Positions 2,369 through 27,633 of a stretch of 35,900 nucleotides of DNA are shown here, in pieces. A program made the translations under genes and the position numbers. Every line of letters begins with the position of its first letter. Position 1 is the first letter of the stretch. The notes beneath the pieces were generated by a model. The model had not been told where the DNA came from. It saw only the letters and a program-made list of their open reading frames with translations, and searched no databases. The DNA comes from an uncultured Ruminococcus sp. (GTDB lineage: Bacteria > Bacillota > Clostridia > Oscillospirales > Ruminococcaceae), in NCBI GenBank assembly GCA_902783005.1, contig CACZPI010000130.1:1-35900 (forward strand). The letters are read 5' to 3'.

Positions 2369-2910
2369 TTATGCCGCTTGCCTGTGATCCTTGGCTTGAC
2401 GATACGCCGGTAGGCTTCACAGAGTCCCGTCAGGGAGTAGTCATACATCAGGAAGAACGGATTGAGAATGACGAGTGTGATGATCCCGCCGTATTTTCCA
2501 AAGTCCTCGAATGCTTCAAGGAGATCCGTCAGGCCGAAGAGATGGACGTTGATGTAGAAATACAGCACCATGCTCACATTGAAGAGAACGAGCTTGATGA
2601 GCAAGCGCGGCAGCCTTGCCGGGATGCGGTTGAGATACAGCCGCAGGATCGGGTAGCAGCCGAAGAACATGATAAAGATGAGCGCTGCCTCCTTGTCATA
2701 GGTGACAAAAAGCGACAGCAGCCCGACAGCGATGTAGGTTACCCATCCCCATTGGATCCCGACCTCTTCGACGACAATGAGGAGCAGAACGCCTGAAATC
2801 ATCGGCAGTACCAGATATAGAAGGGGGAACACCCCTGTCAGAAACATTCCTGCCAGACAGAATGCAGATACGATGCCGCCTAAGGCAACGCGGTAGCTGA
2901 CACGATCCAA
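2362..2910 (-). CDS. Multi-pass membrane protein of unknown function
   Basis: The 182-residue product is mostly hydrophobic, with about five to six predicted membrane segments (residues about 8-28, 30-48, 54-70, 74-90, 105-125 and 140-160) and a basic C-terminal tail rich in Arg and Lys. It has the look of small substrate-binding-type membrane components in Clostridia, but I do not recognise a family motif and assign no function. The start is a TTG at 2910, supported by GGGAGG at 2918-2923 in the right position and by a consensus promoter just upstream. It converges on luxS and shares its terminator. Confidence 0.75.
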   Translation of the reverse strand: MDRVSYRVALGGIVSAFCLAGMFLTGVFPLLYLVLPMISGVLLLIVVEEVGIQWGWVTYIAVGLLSLFVTYDKEAALIFIMFFGCYPILRLYLNRIPARLPRLLIKLVLFNVSMVLYFYINVHLFGLTDLLEAFEDFGKYGGIITLVILNPFFLMYDYSLTGLCEAYRRIVKPRITGKRHKK

Positions 2911-2942
2911 GGCAGCACCTCCCTGATTAGATTTCTTATAAT

Positions 2943-2971
2943 ATTGTACCAGTTCCCGGCGGATTTGTCAA
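2943..2971 (-). promoter_or_regulatory. Sigma-A promoter for the 2362-2910 gene
   Basis: On the minus strand TTGACA (2966-2971) and TACAAT (2943-2948) are separated by exactly 17 bases. A perfect TATAAT also reads on the plus strand at 2937-2942, with no good -35 element, and could serve the divergent transporter gene at 2995; the two promoters would then overlap. Confidence 0.8.
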
Positions 2972-2994
2972 GAGCCGGGGGAATGGAGTGAACC

Positions 2995-3879
2995 ATGCAA
3001 GTAAAACCCCGCTATAAAGGCATTCTCCTGATCGTATGCTCGGCATTCTGCTTTGCTTTCATGAATGCCTTTGTGCGGCTGTCCGGTGATCTGCCTTCGG
3101 TGCAGAAGAGCTTTTTCCGCAATTTTGTCGCGCTGATCGTTGCAGTAGTAATGTTTGCCCGCGAAGGCGCAAAGCCGAATGTACCAAAGGATGCTTATGT
3201 GCCGCTGTTTTTGCGGGCGGCATTCGGTACGGTCGGAATCCTCTGCAATTACTATGCCATTGACCATCTGGTGCTGTCGGATGCGTCGATGCTCAATAAA
3301 ATGTCTCCCTTCTTTACAATCCTGTTCTCGTGGCTGCTTTTGAAGGAAAAGCTCAGACCGGCGCAGGGTGCCGCGGTGCTGTGCGCTTTTCTTGGAAGCA
3401 TGCTCATCGTGAAGCCGTCGCTGGATTTCTCGGATTTTTCCGCATCCTTCTCCGGCTTCTGCAGCGGTATTGCAGCAGGTCTGGCCTATGCGATGGTGCG
3501 GATCCTTGGTACCAAGGGCGTGAATAAGACCCTCATCGTTCTGTTCTTCTCGGGATTTTCCTGCCTGACGACGCTGCCCTATCTGCTGCTGCATTTTCAT
3601 CCCATGACATGGGTGCAGCTTCTGACGCTGATCGGTGCGGGTGTCGCAGCGGCGGGCGGCCAGTTCACCATTACAGCCGCCTACTGCTATGCACCGGCCA
3701 AGGAAATTTCGGTATATGATTATTCTCAACTGATTTTTGCTACGGCGCTGGGATTTTTCCTCTTTGGCGAGATCCCGGATCTCTGGAGCTTTATCGGCTA
3801 CGCGGTGATCATTCTGGCAGCAGTTGCCATGTTCTGGTACAATAACTATTATCTTCCGAAGCACACAGCAGAATCCTGA
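2995..3879 (+). CDS. EamA/DMT-superfamily transporter
   Basis: This 294-residue integral membrane protein has the ten-helix, two-repeat layout of the drug/metabolite transporter superfamily (EamA). Each half begins with a small-residue helix followed by a helix pair: the first repeat runs to about residue 145 and the second starts near FSGFCSGIAAGLAYAMVRI. The LLLKEKLRP loop between helices 4 and 5 and the FLFGEIPD loop near the end are classic EamA positions. Members export metabolites or amino acids; the substrate cannot be read from the sequence. The ribosome site is a modest GGAG at 2985-2988. It ends shortly before the promoter of the dockerin gene and no terminator is obvious after it. 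Confidence 0.88.
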   Translation: MQVKPRYKGILLIVCSAFCFAFMNAFVRLSGDLPSVQKSFFRNFVALIVAVVMFAREGAKPNVPKDAYVPLFLRAAFGTVGILCNYYAIDHLVLSDASMLNKMSPFFTILFSWLLLKEKLRPAQGAAVLCAFLGSMLIVKPSLDFSDFSASFSGFCSGIAAGLAYAMVRILGTKGVNKTLIVLFFSGFSCLTTLPYLLLHFHPMTWVQLLTLIGAGVAAAGGQFTITAAYCYAPAKEISVYDYSQLIFATALGFFLFGEIPDLWSFIGYAVIILAAVAMFWYNNYYLPKHTAES

Positions 3880-19288: not shown

Positions 19289-19828
19289 ATGAGTATCTAT
19301 GATTTCAAGGTAAAGAAGAGAAAGAAAGGCGAGCTTGACCTCGCAGAAATGCGCGGCAAGGTCATGCTGATCGTTAATACCGCAACCGGATGCGGATTTA
19401 CCCCGCAGTATGAGGGGCTTGAGAAGCTCTACGAGAAGTACCATGCACAGGGCTTTGAGGTACTCGATTTTCCGTGTAACCAGTTCGGCAACCAGGCGCC
19501 GGGGGATGATGCGGAGATCCATGAATTCTGCACCGCACGATATAAGACCCGGTTTGACCAGCTTGCCAAGGTGGAAGTCAACGGCGAGCAGGAGAGCCCG
19601 GTATTTACGTTTCTGAAGGAAGCGGCTCCGACAGAGGAGGTCAAGGGTCTCAAGAACAAGATGACGATGAAGGCCATTGCGAAGATCAGTACGACCGCGC
19701 AGAAGCCCTCTGATATTCAGTGGAATTTCACGAAGTTTCTGGTAGACCGCGAGGGCAATGTCGTCAAGCGCTATGGCCCGACGACTGAGCCGGAGGTCAT
19801 CGACGCAGATATTGCGAAACTGATCTGA
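19289..19828 (+). CDS. Glutathione-peroxidase-family thiol peroxidase
   Basis: The 179-residue enzyme reduces peroxides in the cytoplasm. It has the GPx fold motifs: NTATGCGFTPQY with peroxidatic C35 (Cys, not selenocysteine), FPCNQF (61-66) and WNFTKFLVD near the C-terminus. EFCTARYKTRF carries C81 at the position of the resolving Cys in thioredoxin-dependent members, so reduction by thioredoxin is more likely than by glutathione. This is borne out by the next two genes. It is somewhat longer than typical bacterial members because of an insertion of Lys-rich sequence before WNFTKF. ATG at 19289 has AAGGAGG 8 bases upstream. Confidence 0.93.
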   Translation: MSIYDFKVKKRKKGELDLAEMRGKVMLIVNTATGCGFTPQYEGLEKLYEKYHAQGFEVLDFPCNQFGNQAPGDDAEIHEFCTARYKTRFDQLAKVEVNGEQESPVFTFLKEAAPTEEVKGLKNKMTMKAIAKISTTAQKPSDIQWNFTKFLVDREGNVVKRYGPTTEPEVIDADIAKLI

Positions 19829-19866
19829 AAACGAACCGATTACAGAAAATAGAAGGAGTGATTCAA

Positions 19867-20184
19867 ATGCAGGTCATTGCAGTAACGAAGGAAAATTTTG
19901 AGGCAGAGGTTCTCCGATCTGAGAAAACCGTCATTGCCGATTTCAATGCCGACTGGTGCGGCCCGTGCAAGATGCTGCGTCCGGTTCTGGACGAGCTGGC
20001 AGCGGAGCGTGAGGATGTGAAGTTTGTTTCCATTAATATTGATGACGAGGATGAGCTTGCAGATGCGTATGATGTCTCTTCGATCCCGTGCCTCGTGGTA
20101 TTCCGCGGCGGTGCTGAGGTGACCCGCAGCATCGGTCTCAAGCCCAAGGATGCAGTTGCAGCACTGGCAGATGCGGAGGGATAA
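19867..20184 (+). CDS. trxA: Thioredoxin
   Basis: A 105-residue thioredoxin with the redox motif WCGPC (C31, C34) after ADFNAD and the cis-Pro segment SSIPCLVVF, where an extra Cys follows the Pro in place of the usual Thr. It is the likely electron donor for the upstream peroxidase and substrate of the downstream reductase. The ATG at 19867 is used because AAGGAG is 8 bases upstream; the GTG at 19858 overlaps that site. Its stop is 3 bases before trxB. Confidence 0.96.
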   Translation: MQVIAVTKENFEAEVLRSEKTVIADFNADWCGPCKMLRPVLDELAAEREDVKFVSINIDDEDELADAYDVSSIPCLVVFRGGAEVTRSIGLKPKDAVAALADAEG

Positions 20185-20187
20185 GGC

Positions 20188-21096
20188 ATGTACGATATTA
20201 TCATCATCGGCGCCGGCCCTGCGGGAATGACGGCTGCCATCTATGCCAGACGTGCTGCCAAATCCGTTCTGGTGCTGGAGGCAACCGGCTACGGCGGCCA
20301 GATCATCAATACCCCGGACATTGAGAACTATCCGGTCGAAGCGCATATTTCCGGATTCGACTTTGCCACGAAGGTCTATGAGCAGGCGCAGGCACTCGGC
20401 GCGGAGTTTGTCTTCGAGAAGGCAGTCGGCATTGAGGATTCCGGTGCGGAAAAGACCGTCATCACGACCAAGAACCGGTATACCGGCCGTGCGGTGATTC
20501 TTGCGACCGGATCCGAAAACCGGAAGCTCGGACTGGAAAATGAAGATGCGCTGGTAGGACGAGGCGTTTCGTACTGCGCGACCTGTGACGGTGCATTCTA
20601 CCGCAAGAAGACGGTTGCCGTTGTCGGCGGCGGCAATACGGCACTCGAGGATGCACTGTATCTCTCCGATCTGGCAGAAACGGTCTACCTGATCCATCGC
20701 CGTGATCAGTTCCGCGGAGAGGAATCGACCGTTGCGCGTCTGAAGGAACGTGAGAACATCCGGTTCGTCTACAACAGCACCGTCACGAAGCTGAATGCGG
20801 AGAAGAAGCTGCAAAGCATTGAAGTGACCAATCAGGACGGTACGGTGTCCACGATCGAAGTCAACGGCTTGTTTATCGCAGTCGGACGGATTCCGGAGAA
20901 TCAGAATTTTGCCTCTGTGATGGATCTCGATGAAGCCGGTTATGCGGTCGCGGCAGAGAACTGCCGGACGAAAACCCCCGGCATTTATGTAGCAGGGGAC
21001 AACCGCGTGAAGGATGTCCGCCAGCTTGTGACAGCCACCGCAGACGGTGCAGTTGCAGCCACAGAAGCCATCAGATATATCGGTACCCTGAAATGA
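20188..21096 (+). CDS. trxB: Thioredoxin reductase
   Basis: The 302-residue flavoenzyme transfers electrons from NADPH through FAD and a disulfide to thioredoxin. Visible motifs are the FAD-binding GAGPAG (8-13), the redox pair CATC (C130, C133), the nucleotide-binding GGGNTALEDA and HRRDQFR, which favours NADPH, and the second FAD motif GIYVAGD. Length is slightly below the usual 305-320. It is the last gene of the gpx-trxA-trxB unit and is followed by a terminator. Confidence 0.96.
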   Translation: MYDIIIIGAGPAGMTAAIYARRAAKSVLVLEATGYGGQIINTPDIENYPVEAHISGFDFATKVYEQAQALGAEFVFEKAVGIEDSGAEKTVITTKNRYTGRAVILATGSENRKLGLENEDALVGRGVSYCATCDGAFYRKKTVAVVGGGNTALEDALYLSDLAETVYLIHRRDQFRGEESTVARLKERENIRFVYNSTVTKLNAEKKLQSIEVTNQDGTVSTIEVNGLFIAVGRIPENQNFASVMDLDEAGYAVAAENCRTKTPGIYVAGDNRVKDVRQLVTATADGAVAATEAIRYIGTLK

Positions 21097-23525: not shown

Positions 23526-23657
23526 CATAGTAAACCTATGTGTTTTATTTGTATAATTTCATACCCGCCTGAATTTTCTTTTCGTTCACGCCTACAAAAA
23601 AGAGAATGGGGTATTGACTTTCGGAAGGCAGATGCGTATAATAAAAGCATAGTAAAC
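23526..23657. repeat. Repeated CATAGTAAAC element around the sulfate operon promoter
   Basis: The 10-base word CATAGTAAAC occurs at 23526-23535 and again at 23648-23657, 122 bases apart. The first copy extends into a perfect 5-5-5 inverted repeat (CATAG, spacer, CTATG, 23526-23540). One copy lies upstream and the other immediately after the promoter, the arrangement expected of operator sites for a repressor of sulfate uptake. The regulator is unknown. Confidence 0.5.
23614..23642 (+). promoter_or_regulatory. Sigma-A promoter of the sulfate uptake operon
   Basis: TTGACT (23614-23619) and a perfect TATAAT (23637-23642) are 17 bases apart. The transcript would begin near 23649 and carry the leader ORF before sbp. 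Confidence 0.88.
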
Positions 23658-23697
23658 ATACCAAACAAATATGAATACGGTATAAAGGAGCAAAATC

Positions 23698-23757
23698 ATG
23701 AAACAGAGCTACTGGCAGGCATTTGCCGCCGGAGGGATCATCCGTTGTTGTGGCTGA
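23698..23757 (+). CDS. 19-residue leader peptide with tandem cysteines
   Basis: A short ORF starts at an ATG with a strong AAAGGAG (23684-23690) 7 bases upstream and encodes MKQSYWQAFAAGGIIRCCG before a TGA. It lies between the sulfate promoter and sbp, ending 69 bases before the sbp start. Two consecutive Cys codons (TGT TGT) two codons before the stop are what a cysteine-sensing attenuator would show: in actinobacteria, short ORFs ending in Cys runs control sulfur genes by ribosome stalling. I see no clear terminator hairpin after it, so control might act through Rho or translation coupling. Expression as a leader is inferred, not shown. Confidence 0.6.
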   Translation: MKQSYWQAFAAGGIIRCCG

Positions 23758-23826
23758 CCCCCGCAGTTTTCCCGTTGGTAATTTCCCTGTACAATCGTTT
23801 ATTATAAACAGAAAGAGGTAATAGAT

Positions 23827-24861
23827 ATGAAACATCGTTTTTCACGTTTTGCAGCCCTGAGCCTTGCCGTCGTCCTTGGCGCATCCGCCCTGACAGGCTG
23901 CGCAGCACAGCCGAGTGATGCTGCCACAAGCGGCAGCTATTCCATCATCAATGTTTCCTACGATCCGACCCGTGAGCTGTATGCAGCCTATAACGAAGCA
24001 TTCAAGGCACACTGGGAATCCGAGCATGATTCCACGGTGGAGATCACCCAATCCCATGGCGGTTCCGGCAAGCAGGCGCTTGAGGTCGCCAACGGCAATC
24101 CTGCCGATGTGGTCACACTTGCCCTGGAATATGACGTCAAGGCCGTTGAGGATGCCGGATTGATCGAACCCGGCTGGGTAGACGAATTCCCGCTGGATTC
24201 TTCTCCGTACACCTCCACCATCGTCTTCCTTGTCAGAAAGGGCAATCCGAAGAACATTCTGGACTGGGGCGATCTGGTGCGTGAGGATGTCGGCATCATC
24301 ACACCGAATCCCAAGACCTCCGGCGGTGCCCGCTGGAATTATCTGGCCGCCTGGGCATGGGCACAGGGTGAATACAACAATGATGAAGCCAAGGTAACCG
24401 AATACATCAAGCAGCTCTACAAGAATGTACTGGTTCTGGATTCCGGCGCACGCGGTGCCACGACCTCCTTCGTGGAGAATGGCCAGGGTGATGTGCTGCT
24501 GGCATGGGAGAATGAAGCATTCCTCTCTTTGCAGGAATATCCGGATGATTACGAGATCGTTACTCCGTCCATTTCCATTCTGGCACAGCCGTCGGTTGCG
24601 ATCGTGGACAGCGTTGTGGATCAGAACGGTACACGCGAAGTGGCAACAGAGTATCTGAATTATCTGTATTCCGATGAAGCACAGCGCATTGCCGGTGACA
24701 ATTTCTACCGTCCTTCCAATGAGACCATTCTGGCAGAGTATGCCGATACCTTTGATCTGAACATCAACCTTGTCACGATCAATGACTTCGGCGGCTGGGA
24801 CGAGGCGTTTGCAAAGCATTTTGCAGACGGCGCCCTGTTCGATCAGATCTACGAGGAATAA
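23827..24861 (+). CDS. sbp: Sulfate ABC transporter substrate-binding lipoprotein
   Basis: The 344-residue protein captures sulfate (or thiosulfate) outside the membrane and delivers it to CysT/CysW. It has a lipoprotein signal with lipobox ALTGC (C25). The mature part shows the SBP family motifs: INVSYDPTRELY at the N-terminus, ITQSHGGSGKQA (anion-contacting region), NPADVVTLALEYDV, and NPKTSGGARWNYLAAWAWA, which are nearly universal in sulfate-binding proteins. RBS AGAGG at 23814-23818. It is the first structural gene in the sbp-cysT-cysW-cysA operon. Confidence 0.96.
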   Translation: MKHRFSRFAALSLAVVLGASALTGCAAQPSDAATSGSYSIINVSYDPTRELYAAYNEAFKAHWESEHDSTVEITQSHGGSGKQALEVANGNPADVVTLALEYDVKAVEDAGLIEPGWVDEFPLDSSPYTSTIVFLVRKGNPKNILDWGDLVREDVGIITPNPKTSGGARWNYLAAWAWAQGEYNNDEAKVTEYIKQLYKNVLVLDSGARGATTSFVENGQGDVLLAWENEAFLSLQEYPDDYEIVTPSISILAQPSVAIVDSVVDQNGTREVATEYLNYLYSDEAQRIAGDNFYRPSNETILAEYADTFDLNINLVTINDFGGWDEAFAKHFADGALFDQIYEE

Positions 24862-24873
24862 GGAGCGTTATCC

Positions 24874-25704
24874 ATGAAAAAGAAGGTAAGAATCATTCCC
24901 GGATTCGGGCTTTCCATGGGTGTGACACTGGCACTTCTGAGCCTGATCGTTCTGATCCCGCTGGCATCGCTTGTGGTCTTTACTGCGAAGATGAGTCCTT
25001 CCGAGATCTGGGAGGTCATCACCAGAAAAAGAGTACTTGCCAGCTTTGAGGTAAGCGTTCTGACGGCGTTTATCGCATCTGCGGTCAATGCGGTCATGGG
25101 GGTGATTCTTGCCTGGGTTCTGGTACGGTATGATTTCCCGTTCAAGCGACTGCTTGACGGCATGATCGAACTGCCCTTCGCGCTTCCGACAGCGGTTGCC
25201 GGTATTTCTCTGACTTCTCTGTATGCAGATACAGGGCTGATGGGCAGACTGTTTTCCAAATTTGGCATCAAGGTCGCATATACCAGACTCGGCATCATTG
25301 TAGCATTGATCTTCATTGGGATCCCGTTTGTTGTCCGCAGCGTGCAACCTGTTCTGGAAAAGCTCGATCCGCTGTATGAGGAGGCTGCCGGCATGCTGGG
25401 TGCCAGTCGTACCCGCATTTTCTGGAAGGTCATACTCCCGGAGCTGCGGCCGGCGATCTTTACCGGGTTCGGACTTGCATTCGGCAGATGCCTTGGAGAA
25501 TACGGAAGCGTGGTATTCATCGCAGGCAATCATCCGTATGAAACGGAGATCACACCGCTCATCATCATGTCGGAATTGCAGGAATATGATTATTCCAGTG
25601 CAACAGCAATTGCGCTCGTGATGCTTGCGGCAGCATTTCTGATACTGTTTCTGGTGAACCTGATCCAGATCCATAATTCCCGGATTCTGAAGGGAGGTCA
25701 CTGA
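24874..25704 (+). CDS. cysT: Sulfate ABC transporter permease CysT
   Basis: One of two membrane subunits that form the sulfate channel. The 276-residue product has about six membrane helices and the cytoplasmic EAA loop EEAAGMLGASRTRIFWKVILPEL that contacts the CysA ATPase; LPFALPTAVAGISL and GEYGSVVFIAGN are characteristic of CysT/CysU. The ATG lies 12 bases after sbp, with AAGGAG in between. It pairs with CysW encoded one base downstream. Confidence 0.96.
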   Translation: MKKKVRIIPGFGLSMGVTLALLSLIVLIPLASLVVFTAKMSPSEIWEVITRKRVLASFEVSVLTAFIASAVNAVMGVILAWVLVRYDFPFKRLLDGMIELPFALPTAVAGISLTSLYADTGLMGRLFSKFGIKVAYTRLGIIVALIFIGIPFVVRSVQPVLEKLDPLYEEAAGMLGASRTRIFWKVILPELRPAIFTGFGLAFGRCLGEYGSVVFIAGNHPYETEITPLIIMSELQEYDYSSATAIALVMLAAAFLILFLVNLIQIHNSRILKGGH

Positions 25705-25705
25705 T

Positions 25706-26572
25706 ATGGCAAAGAAAGATGCACAGGTAAGCTCGCGTGAAGGAACGATCTCCATTCATGAAGAGACCCGCGGCGCCCGGGCGGTGAAATATCTCCTGAT
25801 CGGCGTCAGTGTTCTGTTTCTGTTTGTCATGCTGGTGCTCCCGCTGGTGACAGTCATAATAGAATCCTTCAAGAAGGGCTTTGGTCAATATCTGAATGCC
25901 GTTACCGATGCCGATACGATCAGTGCCACACTTCTGACGCTGGAAGCGACTGTGATCGCGGTGGCAATCAATACGGTATTTGGATTGTTTGCAGCATGGG
26001 CAGTTACGAAATTCCATTTCAAGGGCAAGAAGGTGCTGGTGACGCTGATTGATCTGCCGGTGACAGTTTCTCCCATCATTGCAGGTCTCATCTATGTTCT
26101 GACCTTCGGACGCCAGAGTGCAGTCTATCCGTTCCTGTCCGCGCATCATCTGGAGGTCGTATACGCTGTTCCCGGCATCATTCTTGCGACGGTATTTGTC
26201 ACCTTCCCGTTTATCTCCCGCGAAATCCTTCCTGTTCTGGAAGCGCAGGGAACAGATGAGGAGGAGGCAGCCGCCATGATGGGTGCAAGCGGACTGACGA
26301 TCTTCCGGCGCATAACCCTGCCGCATATCAAATGGGCATTGCTCTACGGTATTGTACTCTGTGCTGCCAGAGCAATGGGCGAATTCGGCGCGGTATCCGT
26401 GCTGTCCGGCCATCTGCGCGGCAAGACTGTCACATTGCCCCTTCAGGTGGAGATCTTGTTCGGTGACAATAAATTCATGCAGGCATTTGCTGTCTCATCA
26501 ATTCTTGTCGTGCTGGCAGTGGTGATTCTGATTATCCGCAGCATCGTGGAATATGTCGGAAAGGAGAAGTAG
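25706..26572 (+). CDS. cysW: Sulfate ABC transporter permease CysW
   Basis: The second membrane subunit of the sulfate importer, 288 residues with about six helices. The EAA loop reads EEEAAAMMGASGLTIFRRITLPHI; DLPVTVSPIIAGLIYVLTFG and ARAMGEFGAVSVLSGHLRGKT are standard CysW blocks. The N-terminus carries an extra 25 or so hydrophilic residues before the first helix. Start codon one base after cysT stop, with GGGAGG inside the end of cysT; cysA starts 2 bases after its stop. Confidence 0.96.
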   Translation: MAKKDAQVSSREGTISIHEETRGARAVKYLLIGVSVLFLFVMLVLPLVTVIIESFKKGFGQYLNAVTDADTISATLLTLEATVIAVAINTVFGLFAAWAVTKFHFKGKKVLVTLIDLPVTVSPIIAGLIYVLTFGRQSAVYPFLSAHHLEVVYAVPGIILATVFVTFPFISREILPVLEAQGTDEEEAAAMMGASGLTIFRRITLPHIKWALLYGIVLCAARAMGEFGAVSVLSGHLRGKTVTLPLQVEILFGDNKFMQAFAVSSILVVLAVVILIIRSIVEYVGKEK

Positions 26573-26574
26573 TC

Positions 26575-27633
26575 ATGTACATAGAACTCAAGGACATCAA
26601 TAAGACCTACGGAAGCTTCAAAGCCTCGGATCATGTGAGCTTCGGGATCGAAAAGGGAAAGCTCGTGGCGCTTCTCGGCCCGAGCGGCAGCGGCAAGACA
26701 ACGATCCTGCGCATGATCGCCGGATTGGAAAAGCCGGATTCCGGAGAAATCATCATTGACGGAAAGGTTGTCAATGACATTCCAGCCAGCAAGCGCGGCA
26801 TCGGATTCGTATTCCAGAGCTATGCATTGTTCCGGTATATGACCGTGTATGATAATATCGCATTCGGACTGCGCGTGCTGAAGACACCGAAAAAAGAAAT
26901 TGACACCCGTGTCCGGGAGCTGGTGCAGCTGATCGGACTGGAGGGCTTTGAAAACCGCTACCCCAGCCAGCTTTCCGGCGGACAGCGGCAGCGCGTTGCA
27001 TTTGCCAGAGCGCTTGCGCCGCATCCGCAGGTTTTGCTTCTGGATGAGCCGTTTGCAGCAATTGATGCCAAGGTGCGCCAGGAGCTGCGCAGCTGGCTCA
27101 GGGAAATGATCGAGAAGCTGGGAGTGACCAGTATCTTTGTGACCCACGATCAGGACGAGGCGATTGAGATTTCCGATCAGATCATCGTCACCAATCGCGG
27201 CAGGGTCGAACAGACCGGTACCCCCATCGACATTTACCAGCATCCGGAAACGGCATTCACATCCGCCTTCTTCGGCGTGACCTCGGAGCTTGCAGATTAT
27301 ACGGCATTCCGTTCCTTTGACGAGATCGACCACTATGACAAGGCGATCATCCGGCCGGAATTCGTGAAGATCACCAAGAAGGAGGAATTCCAGAAATACA
27401 AATCCTCCGCTGTTGAGGGGATCGTGGAACGCACGGCATTCCGCGGTAATAGTATCGAATTTACCGTGCGCTGCAATGGCAGCCTGTTTACTGCAAGACG
27501 CACGCTCGATGAAGCGCCTGTTGCAGTCGGGGAGAAGGTTGACGTCTTCATCTATCGTATTTTTGTGACGCAGGGCGATGAGGTGCGGATGCTCCAGAAC
27601 AATGCGATCCGCGAAGAATCGGTGGTGATCTGA
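26575..27633 (+). CDS. cysA: Sulfate ABC transporter ATPase CysA
   Basis: The 352-residue cytoplasmic subunit powers sulfate import by ATP hydrolysis. Motifs in order: Walker A GPSGSGKT (35-42), Q-loop VFQSYALF, signature LSGGQRQRVA, Walker B LLLDEPFAAID, and switch His in FVTHDQDEA. From about residue 235 a regulatory, OB-like C-terminal domain follows, with IRPEFVKI, as in CysA and related importers. AAGGAG lies at 26561-26566, inside the end of cysW. It ends the operon before a strong terminator. Confidence 0.97.
   Translation: MYIELKDINKTYGSFKASDHVSFGIEKGKLVALLGPSGSGKTTILRMIAGLEKPDSGEIIIDGKVVNDIPASKRGIGFVFQSYALFRYMTVYDNIAFGLRVLKTPKKEIDTRVRELVQLIGLEGFENRYPSQLSGGQRQRVAFARALAPHPQVLLLDEPFAAIDAKVRQELRSWLREMIEKLGVTSIFVTHDQDEAIEISDQIIVTNRGRVEQTGTPIDIYQHPETAFTSAFFGVTSELADYTAFRSFDEIDHYDKAIIRPEFVKITKKEEFQKYKSSAVEGIVERTAFRGNSIEFTVRCNGSLFTARRTLDEAPVAVGEKVDVFIYRIFVTQGDEVRMLQNNAIREESVVI

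Follow-up and report, generated by a model that had tools for sequence, protein, structure and literature searches.

A tiny leader gene upstream of the sulfate-uptake operon of an uncultured Ruminococcus sp. is probably a cysteine gauge that is read by the ribosome. It lies in a 35,900-nucleotide stretch of contig CACZPI010000130.1, hereafter the window. Its likeliest function, which we hold with reasonable but not high confidence, is that of a translated regulatory leader reporting the supply of cysteine (or Cys-tRNA) to the operon. The best account of such a gauge is translational attenuation, which is supported by the anatomy of the leaders in relatives and which we infer for the window.

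The leader ORF and the sulfate operon

The leader open reading frame (ORF) occupies positions 23698-23757 of the window and consists of 19 codons encoding MKQSYWQAFAAGGIIRCCG, followed by TGA. All features located here are on the forward strand. The sequence AAAGGAG (23684-23690) constitutes the ribosome-binding site of the leader and is spaced 7 bases from its ATG. A sigma-70 type promoter, TTGACT-17-TATAAT (23614-23642), matches the consensus at 11 of 12 positions; a single promoter-like match in the leader stretch is not unusual on its own, with 0.7 expected in shuffled sequences. A class A motif, AAGGIIRC, as defined below, was located within the ORF at 23725-23748 by pattern search and alignment, and the class A pattern has no other match in the source genome.

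The leader stop is followed after 69 bases by sbp (23827-24861), encoding the substrate-binding protein of a sulfate ABC transporter (NF008022 / TIGR00971; E 6e-133 for NF008022). The preliminary description of the locus had placed a 19-codon ORF with a strong ribosome site between a consensus promoter and sbp, and this anatomy is confirmed. The ribosome-binding site of sbp is AAAGAGG (23812-23818). The region around it is the part that fold predictions show to be masked in some relatives; leader-dependent masking is not seen in the window.

The operon continues with two sulfate permease subunits (both PF00528), cysT-like (24874-25704) and cysW-like (25706-26572) by gene order, and an ABC ATPase that is cysA-like by the same standard (26575-27633; PF00005 and TOBE_2). 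Downstream of the ATPase, Pfam assignments identify hemA, a siroheme-type dehydrogenase, hemC, a uroporphyrinogen methylase-HemD fusion, and hemB. Genes for a glutathione peroxidase (PF00255), a thioredoxin (PF00085), and a thioredoxin-reductase-like protein (PF07992) lie on the same strand upstream of the operon, at 19292-21096.

The window leader, queried with one additional upstream codon, matched no NCBIfam family. Six leaders of relatives with at least 20 residues likewise matched none, and a Pfam search with these six returned one sub-threshold match to DUF624 and nothing else. The ORF nevertheless stands above chance, because a similar motif precedes sbp in other genera and its codons drift synonymously.

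Leaders upstream of sbp in the genus and family

The sbp gene is present in 8 of 38 genomes of the genus. Three congeners (G033, G010, and G007) carry the leader MRSFFSSAGGMIRC before sbp and a fourth (G011) carries MMRRCCSAGGIYRM. Two further congeneric leaders, MYRIMRMY in G034 and MYRIMRMH in G035, are devoid of Cys. One genome, G008 (L007), was left out of the leader count as its upstream region is not readable. The preliminary description had held that loss of the Cys codons in close relatives would speak against a cysteine attenuator. This objection applies in part: G034 and G035 lack Cys, but other relatives keep Cys leaders.

In a sample of 396 family genomes, 21 possess sbp at a cut-off of E 1e-40 or better, the genome of the window included. 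Fourteen of them have a leader with one of two C-terminal motifs, together spanning 10 genera; ORFs of relatives were listed only if preceded by a ribosome-site-like sequence. Class A, approximately SAGGxIRC or (S/A)AGGxIRC, is found in nine genomes (G000, the source of the window, G056, G435, G213, G403, G475, G458, G306, and G198, the last counted only loosely with SVGGIMCC). Class B, approximately LRANFRFGRC or (L/V)RANFR(F/C)GRC, is found in five (G421, G206, G293, G284, and G381), with a GTG start in G206. Two other leaders bear Cys: MIEFLIISINFLAAVRCLERC in G194, which ends in VRCLERC, and MKVINFIGVMYLECCSNRMCSSM in G180, which ends in LECCSNRMCSSM. Four genomes have no leader that stops before sbp; G302, G060, and G270 have none, and G085 has an RRCC-containing ORF without a stop before sbp. 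For the remaining genome, G288, no sequence upstream of sbp is available. In G302 (L050), where no Cys leader ORF precedes sbp, a possible hairpin, CGGAGAA...TTCTCCG, is situated directly upstream of the sbp ribosome site.

Among 80 listed matches to named sbp loci, at least 14 have a class A or class B leader on a loose reading; this is a lower bound, and two of the 80 (L083 and L084) have no readable sbp start. The motif-bearing loci among the matches listed are labeled Ruminococcus, Ruminiclostridium, Robinsoniella, Oscillospiraceae, Clostridiales, or Clostridia. Neither motif was noticed among the listed ORFs of the remaining loci, Pseudomonas and Bacillus-type records included.

Two loci, L065 and L069, display hybrid leaders in which a class B-like stretch (NWRNGRMC) is combined with a class A-like end (GGI.YC). 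They look as if two sensors had been fused, or as if one class had been derived from the other.

Conservation of the leader peptide

A set of 33 sbp leaders was compiled, comprising 19 of class A, 8 of class B, 2 hybrids, and 4 unclassed. Duplicates (G010 and the second copies of G421 and G306), G194, G085, and the cysK leaders described below were left out. Cys is present in 31 of the 33 leaders and is the final residue in 17. The preliminary description had built its model on stalling at two tandem TGT codons. The Cys leader itself is conserved, but a Cys-Cys pair, present once in the window, occurs in only 7 of the 33; a lone Cys, frequently as the last codon, is the rule among relatives.

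The 18 distinct class A leaders were aligned on Gly-Gly, which is thus invariant by choice. Ala is kept in 16 of them, Arg in 14, and Cys in 17. The expectation that Cys would be conserved while other codons drift is therefore borne out for Cys, but the other residues are not free to vary. The mean entropy at codon positions 1, 2, and 3 is 0.68, 0.47, and 1.55 bits, respectively, or 0.90, 0.62, and 1.52 bits when the Gly codons are removed. For all eight class B leaders the values are 0.49, 0.27, and 0.83 bits. Grouping the leaders by peptide favors this result, yet most were found by their position upstream of sbp. Since entropy is highest at the third position, reflecting synonymous drift, the leader is, as judged from its codons, kept as a peptide and not merely as RNA, and more of it is kept than a Cys codon would need.

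This pattern bears on a second reading, namely nascent-chain arrest. The conserved peptide itself, rather than Cys-tRNA alone, would halt the ribosome, either on sensing a sulfur metabolite or at termination, with Cys as part of the arrest motif. Residues preceding Cys are conserved whereas the N-terminal halves of the leaders drift, as seen in the Ala and Arg of class A and in RANFR(F/C)GRC, which is kept in six of the eight class B leaders. The terminal Cys of 17 of the 33 leaders would suit arrest at termination, and the Cys-less leaders of G034 and G035 also fit. The class A and class B motifs, however, share little except Arg-Cys, which leads back to the Cys codon. We consider arrest doubtful as the sole explanation and rate it next after the cysteine gauge because of the conserved residues before Cys and the frequent terminal Cys. 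The two can overlap and possibly form one mechanism, in which the peptide makes a single Cys codon decisive.

Related leaders upstream of cysK

A gene-blind motif search of 394 genomes of the order revealed MKQLCVCMAAGGLVRC upstream of cysK in G062. The pattern matched 16 of the 394 genomes, with four control matches; two of the 16 are leaders before sbp or cysK and 13 are neither. In L164, an SD-led ORF has no readable gene downstream. A second pattern, reshaped after the find in G062, was run on the 396 family genomes and matched 10, against 2 matches for the reversed control. Seven of these 10 are short ORFs led by a ribosome-binding site directly upstream of a cysteine gene. Three precede sbp and were already known (G056, G403, and G475), and four precede cysK, those in G232, G301, and G398 being new in addition to G062. 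The other three matches (G157, G247, and G452) contain no such ORF. The CysK assignment is based on TIGR01139 (E 1e-133).

The four cysK leaders belong to one genus. Six of its seven genomes have cysK, and all six cysK loci carry a Cys-bearing leader with (A/V)RC. Motif-bearing leaders account for four of the six; the other two contain ...GALARCCRS... (G471) and ...TTARCYCLH (G438). The genus is absent from the 21 sbp genomes of the family sample, apparently drawn from the same 396 genomes. Neither motif was found at 24 cysK loci read in other genomes (L188-L211); 13 further cysK matches without a locus stand outside this count. The cysK leaders extend the link to cysteine beyond sbp alone, by one genus. 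With a conserved ORF led by a ribosome-binding site, Cys near the stop, and an association with cysteine genes (sbp in 10 genera, cysK in one), the candidacy of the leader as an attenuator is supported in part.

Specificity differs among the patterns. The class B pattern matched 5 of the 21 sbp genomes, and every match is an sbp leader. A relaxed class A pattern matched 17 places in 13 of these genomes. Ten are sbp leaders, four lie in frames of more than 200 codons, and three lie in frames of 17, 43, and 50 codons. An AGG-x-IRC pattern without the stop was discarded, as it matched 20 places in 19 of the 396 genomes with only three leaders among them and five control matches. A consensus fold of the four cysK leaders was also set aside; it contains 31 pairs, of which two show two-sided changes, too few for an argument.

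Terminators, folding and pairing with the sbp ribosome site

In its usual form, the model first put forward for this locus relies on transcription termination controlled by codon starvation, as known from trp and his operons. A leader ORF with end-product codons upstream of a pathway operon is what this mechanism would use, but no terminator-like site is found at 23560-23900 of the window. A simple script detected a terminator in one of the 33 leaders (L062) and none in the other 32, and an Rfam search at the gathering score returned no T-box or other riboregulator in the window or in seven loci. We regard termination-based attenuation as very unlikely, although Rho-dependent termination would have escaped these tests.

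Pairing between the leader and the sbp ribosome site points to an effect on translation. In each leader, a stretch of 25 bases beginning with the key codon was paired with the Shine-Dalgarno (SD) sequence of sbp and compared with 500 dinucleotide shuffles at a cut-off of 95%. The key codon was Cys in 30 of the 33 leaders, and the last codon in L009, L003, and L011, which have no Cys there. Pairing beats 95% of shuffles in 13 of the 33 leaders (9 of 19 in class A, 4 of 8 in class B, 0 of 2 hybrids, and 0 of 4 unclassed), which suggests translational attenuation as far as these predictions go. The other 20 leaders, including both hybrids and all four unclassed, gave p >= 0.05. The loci were selected for the presence of a leader and include several close relatives; with such related rows not being independent, a combined p is too small and overstates the case. 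One of the 13 positives, the class A leader L009 of G011, was measured from Met, its last codon; its Cys pair lies earlier, and stalling at Cys would thus not cover its anti-SD site.

The strongest pairing is predicted in L043, in which an unbroken helix of -21.9 kcal/mol joins the Cys and stop codons of the leader to sbp at its ribosome site and start region. With the leader cut away, a ribosome footprint placed at the key codon raises the predicted exposure of the SD by more than 0.2 in 10 of the 33 leaders and lowers it in 2; with the leader kept, the numbers are 8 and 1, respectively. In L004 and L006, the N-terminal codons contain candidate anti-SD sequences.

The window locus itself contains no anti-SD sequence after its Cys codons (p = 1.0). 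A stalled ribosome leaves the predicted exposure of its SD unchanged (0.12 to 0.16, or 0.55 to 0.50, in the two settings). The whole-leader fold is no better than those of shuffled sequences (z 0.18). Folding of the leader for alternative hairpins, a check proposed at the outset, thus gave a negative outcome in the window, with neither a terminator nor SD pairing. The switch of the window may have been lost, may rely on another structure or on Rho, or the switch model may be wrong.

Promoter palindromes and Rrf2-type genes

An inverted repeat, ATACC...GGTAT (23658-23683), is located just past the expected transcription start of the window promoter and is paired in the predicted fold. It is a possible candidate operator, judged by its sequence. 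Palindromes are also seen by eye in the sbp and cysK leader promoters of relatives (L043-L047 and L167), for example CCTATTGAC...TAGG around the -35 box and AACCTAC...GTAGGTT downstream of the -10 box. We take these palindromes, the window repeat included, to resemble, by eye, a candidate operator of the Rrf2/CymR type. In L002 (G056), a perfect 12-base inverted repeat, AAACATAGTATT...AATACTATGTTT, is positioned between the promoter and the leader. In L004 (G033), a gene for an Rrf2-type regulator (2820-3218, minus strand; PF02082, E 6e-28) lies upstream of the leader and sbp. The source genome of the window contains two Rrf2 genes, both on other contigs.

The Rrf2-type gene of L004 and the palindromes allow that transcriptional control alone could suffice. 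The ORF would then be a translated spacer under an Rrf2-type promoter, or else a functional micropeptide, which peptide-level conservation fits as well; neither would entail attenuation. Such roles are at odds with the placement of the leaders in cis before sbp or cysK, the drift of their N-terminal halves, the position of Cys mostly near the stop, and the anti-SD sequences of a subset, and we judge them unlikely.

Comparison with known leader peptides

The leader probably works like a cysteine attenuator, yet it lacks tested features of both the classical and the mycobacterial families. End-product codons typical of trp and his attenuators are present (Cys in 31 of 33 leaders), but the intrinsic terminator that would go with an antiterminator is found in only one of the 33 and not in the window. 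TnaC is a peptide that halts the ribosome together with tryptophan. Arrest peptides of the TnaC type (PMC10941005) resemble the present leaders in having conserved nascent-peptide residues; no likeness in sequence is claimed.

Mycobacterial polycysteine ORFs regulate the next gene through the cysteine-dependent speed of the ribosome, according to the accessible portions of PMC9094748 and PMC9031893. They share with the present leaders a short Cys-coding ORF before a regulated gene. They are, however, leaderless and contain contiguous Cys codons (PMC9094748, PMC9031893), whereas the Clostridia leaders are preceded by a ribosome site and in most cases contain one Cys, with conserved residues leading up to it. 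The window has a contiguous pair, but the group as a whole does not (7 of 33), and the AAAGGAG upstream of the window ATG differs from a leaderless start.

Cys leader peptides have also been predicted for cys operons of Mycobacterium and P. acnes and for cbs of B. longum (PMC1262725, in part). As in the leaders described here, their Cys codons are near the stop and no conserved terminator hairpin is present. They differ in being actinobacterial and in having runs of Cys codons, and the available part of PMC1262725 notes no SD-masking switch for cys; for leuA, it describes leucine codons that pair with the SD. The uORFC-8-2 motif before cysS in Rhodobacterales is likewise a short Cys-codon ORF before a cysteine-related gene, but that alphaproteobacterial motif has tandem Cys and an intrinsic terminator in the part of PMC8632094 consulted, whereas the window leader precedes sbp and has no terminator. 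A literature search returned no such leader described for Clostridia, which is weak evidence of absence, most subscription journals being beyond its reach. The word cysteine is absent from the main texts of PMC11109978 and PMC6429828 in a term search.

A proposed cysteine gauge

In the proposed mechanism, a ribosome would translate the short peptide, and the C-terminal stretch, approximately (S/A)AGGxIRC, may slow it. When Cys-tRNA is scarce, the ribosome would halt at the Cys codon, which in many leaders immediately precedes the stop. In the readable part of the family, the bases downstream of this codon would act as an anti-SD sequence masking the start of sbp. The halted ribosome would cover the anti-SD sequence, so that sbp would be translated when cysteine is low.

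A bolder proposal, which we offer as tentative, is that in Clostridia these leaders represent a new class of arrest peptides that sense cysteine. SAGGxIRC or LRANFRFGRC would position the ribosome at a Cys codon directly before the stop or close to it, so that one Cys would be enough for a gauge, and the stalled ribosome would lift an anti-SD helix able to embrace the Cys and stop codons. The leader would accompany sbp in genomes with sulfate import and cysK in the genus in which no sbp was found.

In Firmicutes, repressors and T-boxes are credited with most cysteine control. If the cysteine gauge holds true, Clostridia would have another layer of control, a leader read by the ribosome where sulfur assimilation begins. 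The leader might reveal how one Cys codon can be enough, and it is a compact, testable candidate for an arrest peptide. Its motif may be used to find leader ORFs that have escaped annotation.
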